Source: Cellulomonas uda
GTDB taxonomy: Bacteria; Actinomycetota; Actinomycetes; Actinomycetales; Cellulomonadaceae
NCBI RefSeq assembly: GCF_006538705.1
Contig: NZ_BJLP01000013.1
Span: 1 to 64,000, forward strand
DNA length: 64,000 bases
Direction of reading: 5' to 3'
The position numbers and the translations under genes are program-made. This document shows positions 2,183 to 54,538 of this stretch, piece by piece. The first letter of the stretch is position 1, and each line of letters opens with the position of its first letter. Under the pieces are notes generated by a model, which was given only the letters and a program-made list of their open reading frames with translations, did not search any database and was not told where the DNA came from.

Positions 2183-4002
2183 CGCTGGTCCTGGAGCTCG
2201 TGCTGCACGGCCTCACGGTAGCCGTCGTCGTGCGCGAGCAGGTGCGCATGCGTACCGCGCGCCGCGACCCGGCCGTCCGCGATGCGGATCACCTCGTCCG
2301 CGACCTCCAGCCCGGTCAGGCGGTGCGTCACGACGAGCACGCCCCGGTCGTGCTGCGCGCGCAGGACGTGCAGCACGTCGTCGGCCCCCGCACCGTCGAG
2401 GTGCTCCGTCGGCTCGTCGAGCAGGAGGAACGGCGTGCTGGTCAGCAGCGCGCGCGCGAGCAGCAGGCGGCGGCGCTCGCCGCCGGACAGGGTGCGACCG
2501 TCCGGGCCGAGCGGTGTGGCGAGGCCGTCCGGCAGGTCCGCGAGCCAGGTTCCGAGCCCGACGGCGGCCAGCGCCGCGCTCGCCTCGTCGGGTGTCACGT
2601 CGCCGCGCGCGACGCGCAGGTTCTCCAGCAGCGTCGTGCCGAACACGTGGGCGTCCTCGGCGGTGAGGGACGTCGAGCGGCCCGGCACCGGCGCCGTGCC
2701 ACCGCCGGAGGTCGAACCGTCCACGTCCACGTCGCCGGCGTGCGGTGCGAGCAGGCCGGCGAGCGTGAGCAGGAGCGTCGTCTTGCCCGTCCCGGAGGGA
2801 CCGACGACGGCGACGAGGCGCCCGACGCGCAGGTCGAGGTCCAGGGACAGCAGGTCGGGTCCGCCCGGCCAGCCGACGACGAGGTCGCGTGCGGCCAGAC
2901 GCGTCGCGCGCGTGCCGGCGGCCTGCGCGGTGTCGGCCGGTGCGGTCTCGGCCGACGCGGTGCCGTCCGGCGCGGTGCCGTCCGGTGCGGTGCCGGCCGC
3001 GTCGAGCAGCGCGAGGATGCGCGCGGCCGCCGCGCGCGACCGGTGCACCTGCACCGCGGCCTGGGGGAGGACCGACGTCGCCTCGAACGCGGCGAGCGGG
3101 GTCAGCACGACGACCGCGAGGAGCACCGGGGCGAGCCGGCCGTCGCCGACCGCCGGGATGCCGGTGACGAGGGCCGCGAGCACCGCCAGCCCCGTGGCGA
3201 GCTGGCCGAGCCCGGCCGCCAGGGCGGAGGGGCCGGCACCCGCGTCCACCGCGGCACGCGCGCGGGCGTCGGCCTCCCGCAGCGCGGCGAGGCGCTGCGG
3301 GACACGACCCGCGACGGTGAGCGGCCCGGCGTCGTCGAGCAGCGCGAGGGCCTCGGCGGTGACGTCGGCGCGGGCCCGGGTGCCGAGCCGTTCCGACGTG
3401 CGGGCGCCGCGGTCGGCGAGCCACGGTGCGACCACCCCCGCGAGCACCAGGCAGGCGCCGAGCGCGAGGCCGGCGGGGGGCCAGATCATCGTCATGGCCG
3501 CGGTGGTCGCGACGCCGAGGGTCGCCGCGACCGCGGCGGGCAGCAGGCCGCGCACGACGAGGTCGCCGACGTCGTCGACGTCCGCCCCGACCCGGGCGAG
3601 CAGGTCGCCGCGTCGCACGGCGAGCACCGCGCCCGGCTGCCCGGACGCGAGCCGTTCGTAGAGCGAGGTCCGCAGCCGGCTCATGCCGGACAGCGCCAGG
3701 TCGTGCGAGACGAGCCGCTCCACGTACCGCAGCACGCCGCGCCCGACGCCGAACGCACGCACACCGACCGTCGCGACCGACAGGGTCAGCACGGGCGGCA
3801 TCTGGGAGGCGCGGGCGATGAGCCACGCGGAGACGGCGGCGAGCGCGACCGCGCAGCCGAGCGCGAGCGTGCCGAGCAGGACCGCGAACGCGAACCGTCG
3901 GCGGTCGACCTCGAGCAGCGCGACGGCACGGCGCAGCGTGCCGCGCGCGGGGGAGTCGCGCAGCTCCACCACGCGCGGGGCCGTGGGGCGGGTCGTCGTC
4001 AC
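2179..4002 (-). CDS. cydC: CydC subunit of the CydDC thiol-exporting ABC transporter
   Basis: Half-transporter that with CydD exports cysteine/glutathione-type thiols and is needed to assemble cytochrome bd. 607 residues: an N-terminal six-helix exporter domain, then an ATPase domain with Walker A GPSGTGKTT near 400, signature LSGGERRR and Walker B FLLLDEPTEHLD, and a late His (VVTHR). A linker near 300-330 holds short repeats (GTAPDGTAPDGTAS) written in 15-bp DNA repeats around 2955-3000. The GTG at 4002 overlaps the cydD stop as GTGA; a much longer open frame upstream is only the shadow of cydD and was not used. The kinase gene follows with an ATGA overlap. Confidence 0.92.
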   Translation of the reverse strand: MTTTRPTAPRVVELRDSPARGTLRRAVALLEVDRRRFAFAVLLGTLALGCAVALAAVSAWLIARASQMPPVLTLSVATVGVRAFGVGRGVLRYVERLVSHDLALSGMSRLRTSLYERLASGQPGAVLAVRRGDLLARVGADVDDVGDLVVRGLLPAAVAATLGVATTAAMTMIWPPAGLALGACLVLAGVVAPWLADRGARTSERLGTRARADVTAEALALLDDAGPLTVAGRVPQRLAALREADARARAAVDAGAGPSALAAGLGQLATGLAVLAALVTGIPAVGDGRLAPVLLAVVVLTPLAAFEATSVLPQAAVQVHRSRAAAARILALLDAAGTAPDGTAPDGTASAETAPADTAQAAGTRATRLAARDLVVGWPGGPDLLSLDLDLRVGRLVAVVGPSGTGKTTLLLTLAGLLAPHAGDVDVDGSTSGGGTAPVPGRSTSLTAEDAHVFGTTLLENLRVARGDVTPDEASAALAAVGLGTWLADLPDGLATPLGPDGRTLSGGERRRLLLARALLTSTPFLLLDEPTEHLDGAGADDVLHVLRAQHDRGVLVVTHRLTGLEVADEVIRIADGRVAARGTHAHLLAHDDGYREAVQHELQDQR

Positions 4003-5675
4003 GGCGTCACCCGCTCGCCCGCGAGCACCACGACGTCGTCCGCGCACGCGAGGAGCGCGGGCCGGTGCGCGACGAGCAGCACGGTGCGTCCGGCGTCGCG
4101 CAGCGCCGCGACGGTGCGGAGCACCCCGCGCTCGCTCGCGTCGTCGAGGTGCGCGGTGGGCTCGTCGAGCACGACGAGCGGTGCCGCCACGACGAGCGCG
4201 CGCGTGAGCGCCGCACGCTGCGCCTGACCGACGGACAGGCCGTGCCCGCCCCGGCCGACGCGGGTCGCCCAGCCCTCGGGGAGCTCGTCGACCACGACGT
4301 CGAGCCCCGTCACGGCTGCGGCGGCGGCGCGCTGCTCGTCGTCGCCGCCCACGACCTGCGCGAGCGTGCCCGGCTCCAGCACGGGACGCTGGGGCAGCCA
4401 CGAGACCTGCCGCCGGAAGTCGGCGAGGTCGACCGTGCTCGGGGCGTCGGCGGCGACGACGACCGCGTCCTCGCCGAGGACCACGCGGCCCTCGTCGGGC
4501 GTCAGGAGGCCGAGCAGCACCTCGACGGCGGTGGACTTGCCCGACCCGGACGGCCCGGCGAGCGCGGTCACCCGGCCGGGGGTCAGGACGACGCTCAGGT
4601 CGTCGGGCGTGGCGCCGCGGGCCGTGCGTACGGTGACGTGCTCGAGCCGCACGGCGGTGCGGCTCAGGTCGGGCGCCGGCCCGGTGGCGGCCGCGGCGAC
4701 GGGCAGCGGCTCCTCGAGCAGCGCGAACGCGGCCTCGGCGGCGGCGACGCCGTCGGTCGAGGCGTGGAACTGCGCACCCACGGCCCGCAGCGGGGCGAGC
4801 ACCTCGGGCGCGAGGACGAGCACCGCGAGGCCGGTCACCAGGTCGAGGTGGCCGTGCACGAGCCGCAGCCCGACGCCGACCGCGACGAGCGCGACCGACA
4901 ACGTCGCCAGCAGCTCGAGCACCATGCCCGACAGGAACGCGATCCGCAGCGTGCCCATCGTCGCCCGCCGGTGCGCGTCGCCGAGTGCCTGGACGCGCGC
5001 GCCCGGGCCGCGCTCGCGCCCGAGCGCCCGCAGCGTCGACAGCCCCGCGACGAGGTCGAGGACCTGCGCCGAGAGCCGCTGCATGGCCGCGAGGCCCCGC
5101 TGCGAGCGGCCCTGCGTCAGCACGCCCACGAGCCACATGAACAGCGGGACGAGGGGGAGCACGGCGGCGAGGATCGCCGCGGACACCCACTCCAGCCCGA
5201 GCACCACGAGCAGCGTCGCGGGTGTGACCGTCGCCGCGAGCACGAGCTGCGGCAGGTAGCGCACGAAGTACGGCTCGAGGTCGTCGAGCCCGCGCGTCGC
5301 GAGAGCGACGACCTCGGGTGCGCGGCCGTCGCCGAGCCGTCGCGGGCCCAGCGCGGTGGCGTGCGCGACGACGCGCTCGCGCAGCTCGGCCACCGCGCGC
5401 GCCGCGGCCCGGTGCGCGTACCGCTCCTGCACCACGGTGACGAGCACGCGCAGGGCGACGACGAGCACGAGCCAGCCGACGAGCGGGGCGAGCGCGTCCC
5501 ACGCGCCCGCCCCGAGGTCCACGCCGTCGGACACGGCCCGCCCGAGCGCGTGCGCCAGCAGGAGTGCCTGCGCGACGACCAGGACGGCGGTCACGAGGCC
5601 GAGCGCGACGGTCAGGGCGACGTACCACCGCGCTGCGCGGGCGTGGCGCAGCAGGCGCGGGTCGAGCGGTCTCAC
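3999..5675 (-). CDS. cydD: CydD subunit of the CydDC thiol-exporting ABC transporter
   Basis: Partner of CydC. 558 residues: exporter membrane domain (about 1-320), Walker A GPSGSGKST near 373, a signature that reads LSVGQAQR instead of the usual LSGGQ, Walker B LVVLDEPTAHLD and switch His in VLLVAHR. The start is a GTG at 5675 that overlaps the cydB stop (GTGA), giving VRPLDPRLLRHARAAR, which is a normal CydD N-terminus. The gene order A-B-D-C, with CydD before CydC, is common in actinobacteria. All four genes overlap or nearly touch, so a single transcript and coupled translation are likely. Confidence 0.92.
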   Translation of the reverse strand: MRPLDPRLLRHARAARWYVALTVALGLVTAVLVVAQALLLAHALGRAVSDGVDLGAGAWDALAPLVGWLVLVVALRVLVTVVQERYAHRAAARAVAELRERVVAHATALGPRRLGDGRAPEVVALATRGLDDLEPYFVRYLPQLVLAATVTPATLLVVLGLEWVSAAILAAVLPLVPLFMWLVGVLTQGRSQRGLAAMQRLSAQVLDLVAGLSTLRALGRERGPGARVQALGDAHRRATMGTLRIAFLSGMVLELLATLSVALVAVGVGLRLVHGHLDLVTGLAVLVLAPEVLAPLRAVGAQFHASTDGVAAAEAAFALLEEPLPVAAAATGPAPDLSRTAVRLEHVTVRTARGATPDDLSVVLTPGRVTALAGPSGSGKSTAVEVLLGLLTPDEGRVVLGEDAVVVAADAPSTVDLADFRRQVSWLPQRPVLEPGTLAQVVGGDDEQRAAAAAVTGLDVVVDELPEGWATRVGRGGHGLSVGQAQRAALTRALVVAAPLVVLDEPTAHLDDASERGVLRTVAALRDAGRTVLLVAHRPALLACADDVVVLAGERVTP

Positions 5676-49784: not shown

Positions 49785-51376
49785 CGGTCGACCTCCGCCT
49801 CGCACCGGCCGCGCTCGGGTCCTGGCTCTCCGCCCTGCTCGTCGTGCGCGCTCCGCCCGGGACGGCGCTCGTCGCCGCGGTCGCTGCGGGGGTCGTGGCG
49901 CTCGTCGTGGCGCTCGGGCCGAGCCGGCGCCGCTGGGACGGGATCGAGCGGCCGACGTGGCGGGCGTCGGTGGTCCTGGCGCTGCTGGCGGCCGCGGCGG
50001 TGGGTGCCGCCGGCGCCGCGCAGGTGGGGGCGCGGGAGCGTGGCCTGCTCCCCGAGCTCACGGCCGGCGCCGCGGTGGGCACGGTGGTCGGCCGTGTCAG
50101 CGCCGAGCCGGTGCCTGTGCGCGCGGCGTGGCCGGGCGCGCCGCCGCGCGTGCGGTGGGCGCTCGACGTGACGCGCGTCGAGGCCGCCGGCCGGGCGTCG
50201 GGCGCCGTCGGGCGGGTCGTGGTGCTGGGCGGCGAGCCGGCAGCCGGCGTCCCGGCGTACGGCGCGCGCGTCCAGGTCACCGGCCGGATGCGCGCGGCGC
50301 AGCGCGGGGCCCGCGAGGTGGCGCTGCTGGTCGCGTCCGCCGACCCGGTCGTGCTCGCGCCCCCGCGGGCCTGGGACGCAGCCGCGGGACGGGTCCGCGC
50401 GCACGTCCGCCGGCTCGCGGAGCCGCTCCCCGGCGACGCGGCGGCGCTCCTGCCGGGCGTGACCGTGGGGGACACCGCGCGCGTGCCCGACGACCTGTCG
50501 GACGCCATGCGGGCATCCGGGTTGACCCACCTCGTGGCCGTCTCGGGCGCGCACTTCGCGCTCGTCGCCTCGCTCGTCCTCGCCGGCACCGCAGCCCTGC
50601 GCGCGCCGCCGCGCGTGCAGGCCGCCGCGACCGTCGTCGTCGCCGCCGGGATGCTCGTGCTCGTGCACCCCGAGCCCAGCGTGGTGCGGGCGGCCACGAT
50701 GGGTGCGGTCGCCGTGCTGGGACTGGCGGCCGGGCGGCCGGCGCGCTCACCCGCGGCGCTCGGCGCGGCCGTGACGGTGCTGCTCGTCGCAGACCCCTGG
50801 CTCGCGGCCGAGCTCGGCTTCGCGCTGTCGGTCGCCGCGACCGCGGGCATCGTCCTGCTCGGCGTCGCGCTCACCCGGCGCTGGGCGGGACGGCTCGGGC
50901 ACGGCGTCGCCGCGGCGCTCGCGGTCCCGGTCGCGGCGCAGCTGGTGTGCGCCCCGCTCGTCCTGGTGGCGAGCGGGGTCCTCACGCCGTGGGGCGTCCT
51001 GGCGAACGTCGCGGCCGCGCCCGCGGTCGCGCCGGCCACGCTCCTGGGGCTGCTCGCCGCGGCGCTGGCGCCGTGGTGGCCGGGCGGCGCACAGGCGGCC
51101 GCGGCGGCCGCCGGGGCCGCGTGCTGGTGGATCGGCGCCGTCGCCCGGCACGCCGCGCAGCTGCCGGGTGCGCGTCTCGCGTGGGTGCCGGGGACGGTGG
51201 GCGTGACGCTCCTCGCCGCCGCCGGCCTCGCGCTCGCGCGGCTGCTGCTCGGGCGACGGCGGGAGGTGTCGGCGGCGTCTGGCAGGCTGGACCCGTGCCC
51301 GCGCCCACCCGCTCCAGCCGTTCCTCCGGTGGTCGTCCCGGCGGTCAGCGCCGCGCGTCGTCGCCCCCCGGCCTGA
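49781..51376 (+). CDS. comEC: ComEC/Rec2-type DNA uptake channel lacking the metallo-beta-lactamase domain
   Basis: 531 residues. An N-terminal membrane part with the DUF4131/OB-like domain (VGRVSAEPVPVRAAW...GARVQVTGRMR) is followed by the Competence domain: ALLPGVTVGDTARVPDDLSD, SGLTHLVAVSGAHFALVASL, EPSVVRAATMGAVAVLGLAA. The protein stops after about ten helices with a Pro-rich tail; the C-terminal metallo-beta-lactamase-like domain of about 250 residues found in Bacillus ComEC is absent. Overlaps comEA by four bases and holA by 82. Confidence 0.9.
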   Translation: MTVDLRLAPAALGSWLSALLVVRAPPGTALVAAVAAGVVALVVALGPSRRRWDGIERPTWRASVVLALLAAAAVGAAGAAQVGARERGLLPELTAGAAVGTVVGRVSAEPVPVRAAWPGAPPRVRWALDVTRVEAAGRASGAVGRVVVLGGEPAAGVPAYGARVQVTGRMRAAQRGAREVALLVASADPVVLAPPRAWDAAAGRVRAHVRRLAEPLPGDAAALLPGVTVGDTARVPDDLSDAMRASGLTHLVAVSGAHFALVASLVLAGTAALRAPPRVQAAATVVVAAGMLVLVHPEPSVVRAATMGAVAVLGLAAGRPARSPAALGAAVTVLLVADPWLAAELGFALSVAATAGIVLLGVALTRRWAGRLGHGVAAALAVPVAAQLVCAPLVLVASGVLTPWGVLANVAAAPAVAPATLLGLLAAALAPWWPGGAQAAAAAAGAACWWIGAVARHAAQLPGARLAWVPGTVGVTLLAAAGLALARLLLGRRREVSAASGRLDPCPRPPAPAVPPVVVPAVSAARRRPPA

Positions 51377-52338
51377 CGTGGGAGGAGGCGGCGCCCGCAC
51401 CCGTCGTGCTCGTGCGTGGTGCGGAGGGCCTGCTCGTCGACCGCGCGACCGACCGGATCGTCGGCCTCGCGCGCGAGGCAGACCCCGACGTGGAGGTGAC
51501 GCGGATCGACGCGGCGCAGTACACGGCCGGGATGCTGGGCGTGACGACGAGCCCGTCGTTGTTCGCCGAGGACAAGGTCGTCGTGGTCGAGGCGCTCGAG
51601 ACGGGCACGGACGACGTGTTCGCCGACGTCCAGGCCTACCTGACGGCGCCCGCACCGGGCGTCGTGCTCGTCCTGCGCCACAGCGGGGGAGCCCGCGGGA
51701 AGAAGACGCTCGACGCCCTCCGCGCCGCGCAGGTGCCCGAGGTCGCGTGCGACGCGGTGACATCCGACTCGGACAAGACCTCGTTCGTGAACGCCGAGCT
51801 GCGGCGGGCCGGCCGGCGCGCCGACGGCGCCGCGGTCCGCGCGCTCGTCGATGCCGTCGGCAGCGACCTGCGCGAGCTCGCCGCGTCGTGCTCCCAGCTC
51901 GTGGCCGACACCACCGGCATGATCGGCGTCGAGGTCGTCGAGCGGTACTACGGCGGCCGCATCGAGGCGACCGGCTTCCGGGTCGCCGACGCCGCGGTGG
52001 CGGGCGACGCGGGTCAGGCGGTCGCCCTGCTGCGCCACGCGCTCGCCACCGGGCTCGACCCCGTGCCCGTCGTCGCCGCGCTGGCCGCCAAGCTCCGCAC
52101 CATCGCGAAGGTCGGCGCCGTGCGCGGCCGCGGGCAGGGCGCGCTGCGGGACCTCGGGCTGGCCCCCTGGCAGGTGGACCGCGCGCTGCGCGAGCTGCGC
52201 TCGTGGACGCCGGAGGCGCTCGCCGAGGCGATCAGCGCAGTCGCTCAGGCGGACGCCGAGGTCAAGGGCGAGAGCCGGGACCCCCGGTTCGCGGTCGAAC
52301 GGGCCGTGCTCCGCGTGGCGGCCGCCGCCCGCTCCTGA
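51295..52338 (+). CDS. holA: DNA polymerase III subunit delta
   Basis: 347 residues. Clamp-loader subunit: APVVLVRGAEGLLVDRATDR at the N-terminus, FAEDKVVVVEALE, VVLVLRHSGGARGKKTLDAL, and the C-terminal helical collar (VVAALAAKLRTIAKVGAVRG, LGLAPWQVDRALRELRSW). The GTG at 51295 gives a 32-residue polar head and lies inside comEC; later GTG codons fall in the conserved core. Its placement after comEC is standard. Confidence 0.9.
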   Translation: MPAPTRSSRSSGGRPGGQRRASSPPGLTWEEAAPAPVVLVRGAEGLLVDRATDRIVGLAREADPDVEVTRIDAAQYTAGMLGVTTSPSLFAEDKVVVVEALETGTDDVFADVQAYLTAPAPGVVLVLRHSGGARGKKTLDALRAAQVPEVACDAVTSDSDKTSFVNAELRRAGRRADGAAVRALVDAVGSDLRELAASCSQLVADTTGMIGVEVVERYYGGRIEATGFRVADAAVAGDAGQAVALLRHALATGLDPVPVVAALAAKLRTIAKVGAVRGRGQGALRDLGLAPWQVDRALRELRSWTPEALAEAISAVAQADAEVKGESRDPRFAVERAVLRVAAAARS

Positions 52339-52378
52339 CGGTCGACCGTCCGCCCGGCCCGTGCCAGGACGACCGTCA
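52336..52378. terminator. Hairpin holding both stop codons of holA and the EAL gene
   Basis: TGACGGTCG (52336-52344) pairs with CGACCGTCA (52370-52378); the first and last three bases are the stop codons of the two convergent genes. A 14-bp perfect palindrome, GACGGTCGACCGTC (52337-52350), overlaps the left arm. Confidence 0.5.
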
Positions 52379-53041
52379 CAGCATCGTGGCCGCGGGGCCG
52401 AGGATGTCGCCCTGCAGCAGGTCGAACCCCCACGCGACGCAGTGGTCCACGAGCGCGGCGTCGCTCACCCGCTCGGCGACCACCTGCGCCCCCGTGCTGC
52501 GTGCGAGCTCCACGAGCGCGCTGCCGTGCCGGACGAGGTCACGGCAGTCGATCTTCACGTAGTCGGCCCACGGCAGCATCGCGAGCTGCGCGGCGGTCGC
52601 GGTGAAGTCGTCGATCGCCAGGCGGTAGCCCGCCGACCGCAGCCGCGTGAGGCCCGCGAGGGCGGCGTCGTCCGCCGGGACGGTCTCGACGACCTCGAGC
52701 ACGAGCCGGTCGCGGTGCGGCGGCAGGGTGCGGCTGTCGACCAGGTAGCCACGCGTGACGTTGACGAACGCGAGGGTGTCGTGCAGGTCCATCGTCGGGA
52801 TCCGGCCGAGGACCGCCTCGGTGGCGTCCTCCTGGCGCCCCTCGTCCCAGTGGTCCACGCCCGCCGGTGTGCCGTCCGGCCTGCGGTACAGCAGCTCGTA
52901 GCCGTGCAGGTCACCGCCCGGTGACCAGATCGGCTGGCGCGCGACCTGCGGCGGCGTCGAGGGCCGTGACGCGCTCGTGGAGGGACTCACGCTGGATGAG
53001 AGGCGCAGACGCGCGATCCATGACGCCGTTTCGTGAGACAC
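52376..53041 (-). CDS. EAL-domain protein (YuxH-like, EAL only)
   Basis: About 221 residues. RQPIWSPGGDLHGYELLYR is a YuxH-type opening with ELL for EAL; LAFVNVTRGYLVD, LVLEVVETVPADD, LAIDDFTATAAQL (Asp-Asp kept), DYVKIDCRDL and AERVSD correspond to the later EAL metal and substrate motifs. The protein ends in LLQGDILGPAATML, with no HDOD domain. So some c-di-GMP phosphodiesterase residues remain, but activity is doubtful. The start is uncertain: GTG 53041 or GTG 52990, neither with a ribosome site. Confidence 0.75.
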   Translation of the reverse strand: MSHETASWIARLRLSSSVSPSTSASRPSTPPQVARQPIWSPGGDLHGYELLYRRPDGTPAGVDHWDEGRQEDATEAVLGRIPTMDLHDTLAFVNVTRGYLVDSRTLPPHRDRLVLEVVETVPADDAALAGLTRLRSAGYRLAIDDFTATAAQLAMLPWADYVKIDCRDLVRHGSALVELARSTGAQVVAERVSDAALVDHCVAWGFDLLQGDILGPAATML

Positions 53042-53063
53042 GTCGCCGGCGTCCGTGTCCGCG

Positions 53064-53798
53064 TCAGTCGACGATCTGGGCGCTCGCGCGGTCGAGGACG
53101 CCCGCGCGCTCGAGGAGGTTGCCCTGGAACAGGGTGAACCCCAGGTCACGGGCGTGTGCCATCGCCTCGGGGGTCTCGACGTACTCCGCGACGAGGCTCG
53201 CGCCGTACGAGCGGGCGAGCGTGACGACGGGGTGCCCCTCGACGTCGAGGTCCCGCACGTCGACCTTGACGTAGTCCGCGTGCGGCAGGAGCCGACGCTG
53301 CGCCGCGCTGCTCACGAACGCCGGCAGCGCGAACCGGTAGCCCTCGGCGCGCAGGCGCCGGACGCCGGCGAGCACGTCGGCGTCGATCGGCACGGTGTCC
53401 GGGACGACGAGCACGAGCCGGTCGGGGCGGCGCGGCACCGCGAGGTCACCGACGAGGTACGCGCGCGTGCACCGCACGAACAGCAGCCGTCCGTTCGCGA
53501 CGCTCTCGAGGTCCGCGCGGCCGAACGTCGCGGACAGCACGTGGGCGGTCGCACGCTCGTGCTGCTGCGCGCTCCAGGAGCCCGCGGAAGCGCCCGACAG
53601 GGCGCCGTCCCCGCGGTAGGAGAGCTCGTACGCGACCGGTTGGCCGGATGCGGTGAAGATGCCCTGGCGGCCGACGAGCACGGGGGAGGCCGAGACGTGC
53701 GCCTCCCACTGCGTGCGAAGGGCCCCCGGGATCGCGTCGTCCACAGCCGCCGCGAGGCGCCGGAGTGCCGCGTCGAGGTCGTCCTTCACACGCACCAT
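53064..53798 (-). CDS. Degenerate EAL-domain protein, paralogue of its neighbour
   Basis: 244 residues. It aligns by eye with the gene at 52376 along the same motif order (GRQGIFTASGQPVAYELSYR, LLFVRCTRAYLVG, LVLVVPDTVPIDA, FALPAFVSSAAQR, DYVKVDVRDL, LFQGNLLERAG), but ELL is ELS, the E in the VVET motif is lost (VPDT) and the Asp-Asp of AIDDF is LPAF. It cannot keep the usual two-metal phosphodiesterase centre. A ligand-binding or scaffold role is inferred. The ATG at 53798 is the best start, 22 bases before the neighbouring gene start. Confidence 0.72.
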   Translation of the reverse strand: MVRVKDDLDAALRRLAAAVDDAIPGALRTQWEAHVSASPVLVGRQGIFTASGQPVAYELSYRGDGALSGASAGSWSAQQHERATAHVLSATFGRADLESVANGRLLFVRCTRAYLVGDLAVPRRPDRLVLVVPDTVPIDADVLAGVRRLRAEGYRFALPAFVSSAAQRRLLPHADYVKVDVRDLDVEGHPVVTLARSYGASLVAEYVETPEAMAHARDLGFTLFQGNLLERAGVLDRASAQIVD

Positions 53799-53961
53799 GA
53801 CATCACAGGTGCGCGGCGCGGTTGCGCGAACGCCCGGGTGGAAATCGCTCGCCCCAAACGTTTCATCCGCGCCGTGGTCCACCCTGCTGCGACGCGGTGC
53901 CGCGTGTGCGGTGGTCCGGGTGGGGACCGGTCCGCCGGTGGGCGCGGCCGCGGGAGACGGG

Positions 53962-53995
53962 ACGAGGCGCCACCCCGTCAGGGGTGACGCCTCGT
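53962..53995 (-). terminator. Terminator after rpsT
   Basis: ACGAGGCG (53962-53969) pairs with CGCCTCGT (53988-53995), extended inward by CACCCC/GGGGTG, with one internal mismatch. It lies 45 bases downstream of the rpsT stop. The remaining bases to 53799 show no gene. Confidence 0.6.
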
Positions 53996-54039
53996 GGCTC
54001 ACGCACGACGTGCGGCGTGTGCTGCCCGCGCGCGGGAAC

Positions 54040-54300
54040 TCAGAGCGAGTTGACCGACTTCGCGAGCGCCGACTTCTTGTTGGCCGCCTGGTTGGCGTGG
54101 ATGACGCCCTTGCTGACCGCCTTGTCGAGCTTCTTCGACGCGGTCTGCAGCGCGGCGGTGGCCGCGTCCTTGTCACCGCCGGCGACGGCCTCGCGGACGC
54201 GACGGACGTGCGTCTTGAGCTCGGACTTCACCGACTTGTTGCGCAGGCGCGCCTTCTCGTTGGTGCGGATGCGCTTGATCTGGGACTTGATGTTCGCCAC
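54040..54300 (-). CDS. rpsT: 30S ribosomal protein S20
   Basis: 86 residues, [20 protein letters not shown] onward, ending [14 protein letters not shown]20 binds 16S rRNA early in assembly. It is monocistronic with its own promoter and terminator, as usual between holA and lepA in actinobacteria. The ribosome site GAGAG is moderate. Confidence 0.97.
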
Positions 54301-54440
54301 TGGTGGACTCTCTTGTGCGTTCGCCGAAGCGATCTGACAGGTCGTAGAGGGCGCGCGCAGCTCCGGGACTGGGGCGTGGGGACACCCGCGGAGAGGAGCT
54401 GGGCGAGTGCCCGCCGACCTGGGCGGACACGCAAGGGAAG

Positions 54441-54470
54441 ATGCTACCCGACGCGGACGCTCCCACCCAA
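54441..54470 (-). promoter_or_regulatory. Promoter of rpsT
   Basis: Minus-strand TTGGGT (54465-54470), 18 bases, TAGCAT (54441-54446). The transcript would start near 54434, leaving a leader of about 130 bases. Confidence 0.55.
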
Positions 54471-54538
54471 GCCGCGCAGCCCGGACCGGCGGACGTCACA
54501 CCGGGTCGCCACCGCCGGGGTCTCGGGGGCGACGGCCC

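Follow-up and report, generated by a model that had tools for sequence, protein, structure and literature searches.

What keeps an EAL protein that has lost its metal ligands next to an intact paralogue is the question raised by a small locus of Cellulomonas uda, located in the window, i.e. the 64,000-nucleotide stretch of contig NZ_BJLP01000013.1 analysed in this work. Cellulomonas is a genus of cellulose-degrading bacteria, and the degenerate EAL proteins known to have been studied are mostly proteobacterial. A search of open-licence papers retrieved none on the family of the degenerate protein described below, and nothing on c-di-GMP outputs of Cellulomonas. An earlier note on this DNA had called attention to two EAL-type proteins between positions 52376 and 53798, related to each other and devoid of GGDEF or HDOD partners, and on these points it was right. 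The two genes, called A and B (Table 1), reside on the minus strand, and both products exceed the Pfam EAL (PF00563) cut-off of 31.3 bits (A, 54.7 bits; B, 36.4 bits). At E up to 1 EAL is the only Pfam family matched in either protein, neither GGDEF nor HDOD being found. The alignment of A and B (86 of 200 residues identical, 43% over 200 aa, E 4e-40) marks the two proteins as paralogues. EAL matches at E up to 0.1 were obtained for 24 of 24 B members, the gathering cut-off having been checked for the B of the window. The same note had regarded the degenerate copy as the second of the pair. One copy is intact and one is degenerate indeed, but the degenerate one is B, and B is transcribed first, A second.

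Table 1. Features of the EAL locus in the window
Feature	Position	Strand	Basis or remark
B, degenerate EAL-only protein, 244 aa	53064..53798	-	Pfam, paralogue alignment, model, residue table
A, EAL-only protein, metal and catalytic residues complete, 221 aa	52376..53041	-	GTG start at 53041 uncertain
rpsT (ribosomal protein S20; presumed), upstream syntenic marker	54040..54300	-	
holA-like gene (DNA polymerase III delta subunit; presumed), convergent, downstream syntenic marker	51376..52338	+	Start is that of the stretch that served as query

The start codon of A has been picked by inspection, and lies 22 bp past the stop codon of B. The flanking genes, which we take to be rpsT and a holA-like gene, served as landmarks of the locus in other genomes. 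A scan of the region 52200-54500 for sigma-70 consensus sequences detected no promoter-like sites. Five EAL matches (A, B, and three that adjoin GGDEF domains) and six GGDEF matches occur in the genome, and c-di-GMP signalling is therefore likely to operate in this organism. GGDEF proteins are present in all 17 genomes of the genus that were sampled.

Active-site columns were set by profile-profile comparison with the three canonical GGDEF-EAL proteins of the same genome, E. coli PdeH and RflP/YdiV providing a second reference. The residue table comprises 60 rows for B, one from the window, one from the divergent L136 and the rest from 58 loci; of the 40 rows for A, 39 stem from these loci and one from the window. 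The B protein of the window keeps Glu58, Arg62 (the ExLxR Arg), Lys178 and Asp180 (KxD), Glu205 (AE) and Gln225 (QG). The ExLxR Leu is changed to Ser, the metal-binding Asn to Arg109 (FVN to FVR), the two Glu of LExxE to Val (Glu131) and Asp (Glu134), and the Asp-Asp pair to Pro159-Ala160. The earlier note had assigned IDDF and ELL-type motifs to one copy, which is A, and had proposed that ELS, VPDT and LPAF replace the catalytic motifs in the other. This is correct for VPDT and LPAF; ELS, read there as a lost metal-binding Glu, belongs to the segment Y-E-L-S-Y-R, which retains the Glu and has lost the Leu. The most telling change at the metal site, that of Asn to Arg, had escaped attention.

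The pattern is shared by the whole set. The metal Asn is Arg in 60/60 B rows, and neither Asp of the pair is left in any of them, a coincidence beyond chance. The second LExxE Glu survives in 1/60 rows, the first in 55. The Glu of the EAL motif is retained in 19 rows and is Gln in 38; the ExLxR Leu is invariably replaced by Ser, Ala or Gly (0/60), and the ExLxR Arg is present in 59/60. Lys is found in 58 of the 60 rows and Arg in the remaining two, while the KxD Asp, the AE-Glu and the Gln are fixed (60/60 each). A divergent relative outside the 60 rows (L134, labelled S by score) has Arg at the Asn position too. The sharpest changes that set B apart are Gln to His80 and Asn to Arg109, each found in 45/45 B rows, with six single-copy rows agreeing with A. 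The idea that losses cluster in the catalytic columns taken together was abandoned, as they hit 5 of 11 of these columns versus 10 of 37 A-conserved columns, a difference which is not significant (Fisher p 0.28). In BlrP1, as described in excerpts of the original work (PMC3989770), Asn239 positions metal 1, Asp302 and Asp303 help to coordinate the metals, and Lys323 contributes to water activation. Since B has lost the residues that would hold the two metals, its hydrolytic action through the known EAL mechanism looks very unlikely.

A is a different case. All twelve positions are retained in 40/40 A rows, and the set (E, N, E, E, D, D, K, D, E, Q) is that of canonical GGDEF-EAL phosphodiesterases; in contrast to these, A lacks the loop 6 sequence DFGTGYSS, and has a shortened loop instead. 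A similarly short, atypical loop 6 is found in EAL-HDOD proteins from the same family of bacteria, which served as the closest intact outgroup of the tree; three relatives (L071, L145 and L141) were examined for a C-terminal HDOD domain, and all have it. A degenerate loop 6 can reduce activity, according to the portion of a review available to us (PMC10333796). The lack of a canonical loop makes the activity of A likely, not certain. A is probably a c-di-GMP phosphodiesterase, kin to EAL-HDOD enzymes such as YuxH and ZpdA minus the HDOD domain. The known phosphodiesterases of this type (YuxH, ZpdA, CdgJ) carry the HDOD domain that A and B lack. ZpdA is active in the excerpted report (PMC12607878), and so is YuxH, the deletion of which raised c-di-GMP, again from an excerpt (PMC12029170).

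The EAL TIM-barrel fold is predicted for both proteins. The AlphaFold models have pLDDT 89.2 and pTM 0.86 (A), and pLDDT 90.4 and pTM 0.83 (B). The best structural match of the A model is MucR (5m1t_B, Z 20.0, rmsd 2.6, 192 residues aligned), that of the B model by VIA-align is YahA (4lyk_D, Z 18.8, rmsd 3.2, 200 aligned). In the B model the barrel is preceded by a helical segment (residues 2-37) made of two extra helices (residues 2-22 and 25-37), the sequence of which is partly conserved across B proteins. A similar segment is found in the single-copy protein of genome G005; one weakly predicted helix occupies this place in the A model.

Scanning of genome contigs with a B profile led to 66 named loci. 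A holA-like match lies in range of the EAL gene at all of them, and rpsT at 63, contigs ending short of rpsT at the other three. B resides at 58 of the loci, 39 of which host A as well and 19 do not. The eight remaining loci carry a single EAL gene, and belong to Pengzhenrongella (one), Demequina (five) and divergent Cellulomonas (two). B was identified in 80 of 81 Cellulomonas genomes by strong matches (E 1e-69 or better) free of internal stops; this count was scored by match strength, substituted residues being read in the 60-row table. The only genome lacking a strong match, G190, is 67% complete, and yielded just a partial, A-type match. The record named Cellulosimicrobium cellulans DE0111 (L128) hosts a B nearly identical, in a quick tree, to that of Cellulomonas sp. 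IC4_254, and is possibly mislabelled.

The quick tree suffered from long-branch joins and from one badly trimmed row (L143, branch 7.89), and was replaced by a careful tree of 104 rows, from which L152 and a set of EAL-HDOD-like proteins discussed below (FLG) were left out. Nine loci (L077, L079, L087, L089, L091, L101, L113, L116, L127) were omitted from both trees as near copies. A proteins form a clade of 34 rows (support 100/97), B proteins one of 50 rows (82/89), to which the divergent pair L136/L139 is joined with support 99/96; L136, one of the 60 B rows, thus sits beside the B clade proper, not inside. The single copies of Pengzhenrongella and G005 are sister to B plus L136/L139 (99/96). 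In the former all residues are intact except the ExLxR Leu; the latter has Asn and Asp-Asp, the AE-Glu being changed to Gln and the second Glu to Asp. B-type genes still endowed with Asn and Asp-Asp, as classed by the tree, are therefore extant, and A and B had separated before the active site was lost. In these copies the place of the ExLxR Leu has already been taken by Tyr or Cys, which hints, on the basis of two rows, that the ExLxR motif was the first to be lost. The tree suggests that the pair goes back to a duplication between rpsT and holA that preceded the radiation of Cellulomonas; its exact age depends on deep branches that are weakly supported (81/71, 79/38, 83/81). In an outgroup (L138, genome G119) two EAL copies (4786-5502 and 1973-2569, both on the minus strand) flank a gene for an XRE/TPR regulator (3370-4665, plus strand) between rpsT and holA, an arrangement which is perhaps an older form of the locus. 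A single-copy EAL gene found at the same locus in G099 (L039/L154), with Asn changed to Ser and Lys to Thr, is a case of independent partial decay.

The copy repeatedly lost is A. At least six independent losses can be counted on the 50-tip B tree. In the seven sampled genomes that have B but no A at this site, the best hit to A in the whole genome is B itself; one of the seven, G038, has a truncated remnant of A (L140, 1644-2009, minus strand) next to an intact B. In the 40 genomes hosting both genes, the two species of a pair are more alike in B than in A in 646 of 780 cases, with one tie; mean identities are 0.60 for A, 0.70 for B and 0.76 for the holA-like gene. In 15 close species pairs, mostly though not strictly independent, dN/dS is lower in B than in A 13 times (sign test p 0.007), the median being 0.054 in B and 0.088 in A, with B values of 0.064 or less in 11 pairs. 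The exceptions, L120/L123 and L122/L124, come from one subclade (C. citrea and MAGs) in which B evolves faster than A, and where B is under weaker or different constraint. B is under purifying selection across most of the genus. The duplication and the loss of catalytic residues in one copy, both put forward in the earlier note, find support in the tree, synteny and the residue table. The drift supposed to have followed does not: the duplication predates Cellulomonas on the tree, the Arg is fixed, B is nearly ubiquitous in the genus, and the lower dN/dS values indicate that B is not drifting in most of it. The non-enzymatic role proposed in the note, in binding of c-di-GMP or of a protein, would fit the data.

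What B does can be approached by asking which residues it has kept. Since B is mostly better conserved than A, it has in all likelihood a task of another kind, based on binding. The reading that we tentatively prefer, with rather less than even confidence, is that B is a conserved pseudo-phosphodiesterase acting as a binding protein, the pocket of which putatively hosts c-di-GMP or a related nucleotide. The barrel of B, no longer able to hold two catalytic metals, would act by binding. The pocket would still accept a ligand without metal, most plausibly c-di-GMP or a relative, with Arg109 placed at the former metal 1 site and offsetting either a ligand phosphate or leftover acidic residues. 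Binding would be signalled to a partner through the surface of B, or through the N-terminal helices typical of B. A, which is dispensable, would lower the signal that B reads. In favour of a ligand, five pocket residues (Arg, Lys, Asp, Glu, Gln) are nearly fixed. YdiV/RflP of E. coli K-12, which does not bind c-di-GMP according to the excerpted review (PMC10333796), lacks Lys and the AE-Glu, which B, A and active PdeH all retain. Moreover, the c-di-GMP receptor LapD is described in part of a published study (PMC3032553) as having a basic residue (Lys, in KVL) at a metal-ligand position. Other data point the opposite way. In the sections of the review at hand (PMC10333796), ExLxR decides c-di-GMP binding in inactive EAL domains, and E. 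coli CsrD (ExMxR) is non-binding. The loss of the ExLxR Leu in every B row hence counts against c-di-GMP binding, and the receptor motif of LapD and FimX as a whole is not found in B (Arg 59/60, Leu 0/60, Glu 19/60). PdeH, annotated as an active phosphodiesterase, has Val in place of the ExLxR Arg and Ala in place of the KxD Asp at these columns, and only Lys and the AE-Glu are therefore left to set B apart from YdiV. Pocket residues had been considered as a proof of ligand binding; two of them being absent in PdeH, the argument is weakened. At the level of sequence the yardstick proteins distinguish binders from non-binders weakly.

The same observations lend themselves to another reading, which we judge only slightly less likely than the first. 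B could be a nucleotide-free scaffold resembling YdiV, working through contacts with a protein, as an example a transcription factor, or with RNA. The lack of the ExLxR Leu, along with the Glu to Gln changes, and the weakening of the ligand argument by PdeH speak for it. Features peculiar to B, such as the invariant His80 and Arg109 and the conserved N-terminal helical segment, may serve contacts of this sort. YdiV (RflP, STM1344) and STM1697, which like B are EAL-only and catalytically dead, work in this manner in the excerpts of the review (PMC10333796), and the fold of YdiV resembles the B model (3tlq_A, Z 16.7, rmsd 3.8, 194 aligned). The residues lost are not the same. In YdiV the metal Asn is still present, whereas the Arg of ExLxR, the first Glu of LExxE, Lys and the AE-Glu are gone. 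In B it is the Asn that is gone, replaced by Arg, while the ExLxR Arg, Lys and the AE-Glu persist; the presence of the last two speaks against a scaffold. A flagellar target is unlikely for B. The gene flhA is missing in five of the 17 sampled genomes of the genus (G000, G041, G131, G136 and G144), all of which have B, and a YdiV-like flagellar regulator is accordingly disfavoured. The genome of the window (G000) gave no flhA match, versus 12 of the 17 which have the gene, and is probably that of a non-flagellate organism.

A candidate partner for a scaffold is encoded next door. A gene for an XRE/TPR regulator lies divergently beside B at 52 of the 66 named loci, and in 59 of the 73 stretches searched; in L075 it spans 2221-3543 on the minus strand, and encodes a 440-aa HTH_3/TPR protein. 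However, the gene was not found at the locus of the window or at those of its nearest relatives (L072-L074), and no orthologue was found in the genome of the window. The regulator was consequently rejected as an obligatory partner of B.

LapD and FimX, by comparison, are dead EAL barrels as B is (3pjt_A, Z 17.5, rmsd 3.4, 198 aligned, and 3hv8, Z 16.9, rmsd 3.2, 194 aligned, respectively), and LapD has a basic residue at a metal-ligand position as B does. Yet, both are multidomain GGDEF-EAL proteins, classed under ExLxR binding in the review as excerpted (PMC10333796), whereas B is a stand-alone protein without the Leu. The role of the Arg has to be weighed also against the FLG set, degenerate EAL-HDOD-like proteins from the same family of bacteria (L141, L142, L150, L151, L153, L163-L171, L173-L182; HDOD checked in L141 only). 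In these 24 rows Arg is found at the metal Asn in 19, the Glu of the EAL motif in none, and the ExLxR Arg is lost in 21; a 25th FLG-like row, L172, is intact and of another kind, and was excluded from the counts. In 19 cases the gene shares a contig with flhA, at a distance of 27-37 kb, and in the other five it is on a different contig. When FLG rows are included, they join L136/L139 beside B (92/65), a grouping not to be trusted, because of long branches and shared substituted columns. Since most FLG rows lack the ExLxR Arg, a structural role of the Arg at the metal Asn, as a plug of the vacated site, is at least as well supported as ligand contact, and the Arg of B may be such a plug.

That B regulates A, by forming a heterodimer which tunes the phosphodiesterase activity of the latter, is improbable. 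The genes are adjacent, a short gap separating B from the A start used here, and EAL domains form dimers, as stated in excerpts of the BlrP1 work (PMC3989770). Nevertheless, A is missing at a third of the B-bearing loci (19/58), as a result of repeated losses, and is not replaced by a copy elsewhere in the seven genomes mentioned above, G038 preserving a remnant only. B outlives A, and a complex of the two is thus disfavoured as the core role of B; it might be an extra function.

Still less credit is given to the hypothesis that B is still a hydrolase, of c-di-GMP or of some other substrate, with an alternative chemistry. Its pocket does retain Lys, Asp, Glu and Gln, but the metal-binding Asn and the Asp pair have disappeared from every row, and we know of no EAL phosphodiesterase working without them. 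Lastly, a decaying pseudogene, to which the missing catalytic motifs and the faster evolution of B in one subclade could be ascribed, is barely credible given the lack of internal stops in 80 genomes and the low dN/dS of B, selection data ruling it out for most of the genus.

Stand-alone degenerate EAL proteins are an already known kind. Distinctive of B are the combination of residues lost and kept, the fixed Arg, the N-terminal helices, the distribution in actinobacteria, and the survival past its enzymatic twin. It is conceivable, though on the present residue and tree data unlikely, that B is the founding member of a separate family of EAL receptors in actinobacteria, which work without metal and have a fixed Arg in its place, enzyme and reader having been formed by tandem duplication, and the reader being the indispensable half. 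Should the Asn to Arg changes of FLG proteins be independent, the passage from enzyme to pseudoenzyme would be a repeatable route. The locus offers a clean comparative system to learn how a second-messenger enzyme turns into a binding protein, since the enzyme lies beside its dead paralogue at 39 of the 66 loci, intact single-copy relatives occupy the same locus elsewhere, and the enzyme has been repeatedly lost in nature. Among the questions that can be addressed is that of order, i.e. whether the ligand motif was lost first, the metal site next, and the new constraint came last. If the preferred reading is correct, B would be a binding protein retained nearly throughout Cellulomonas.
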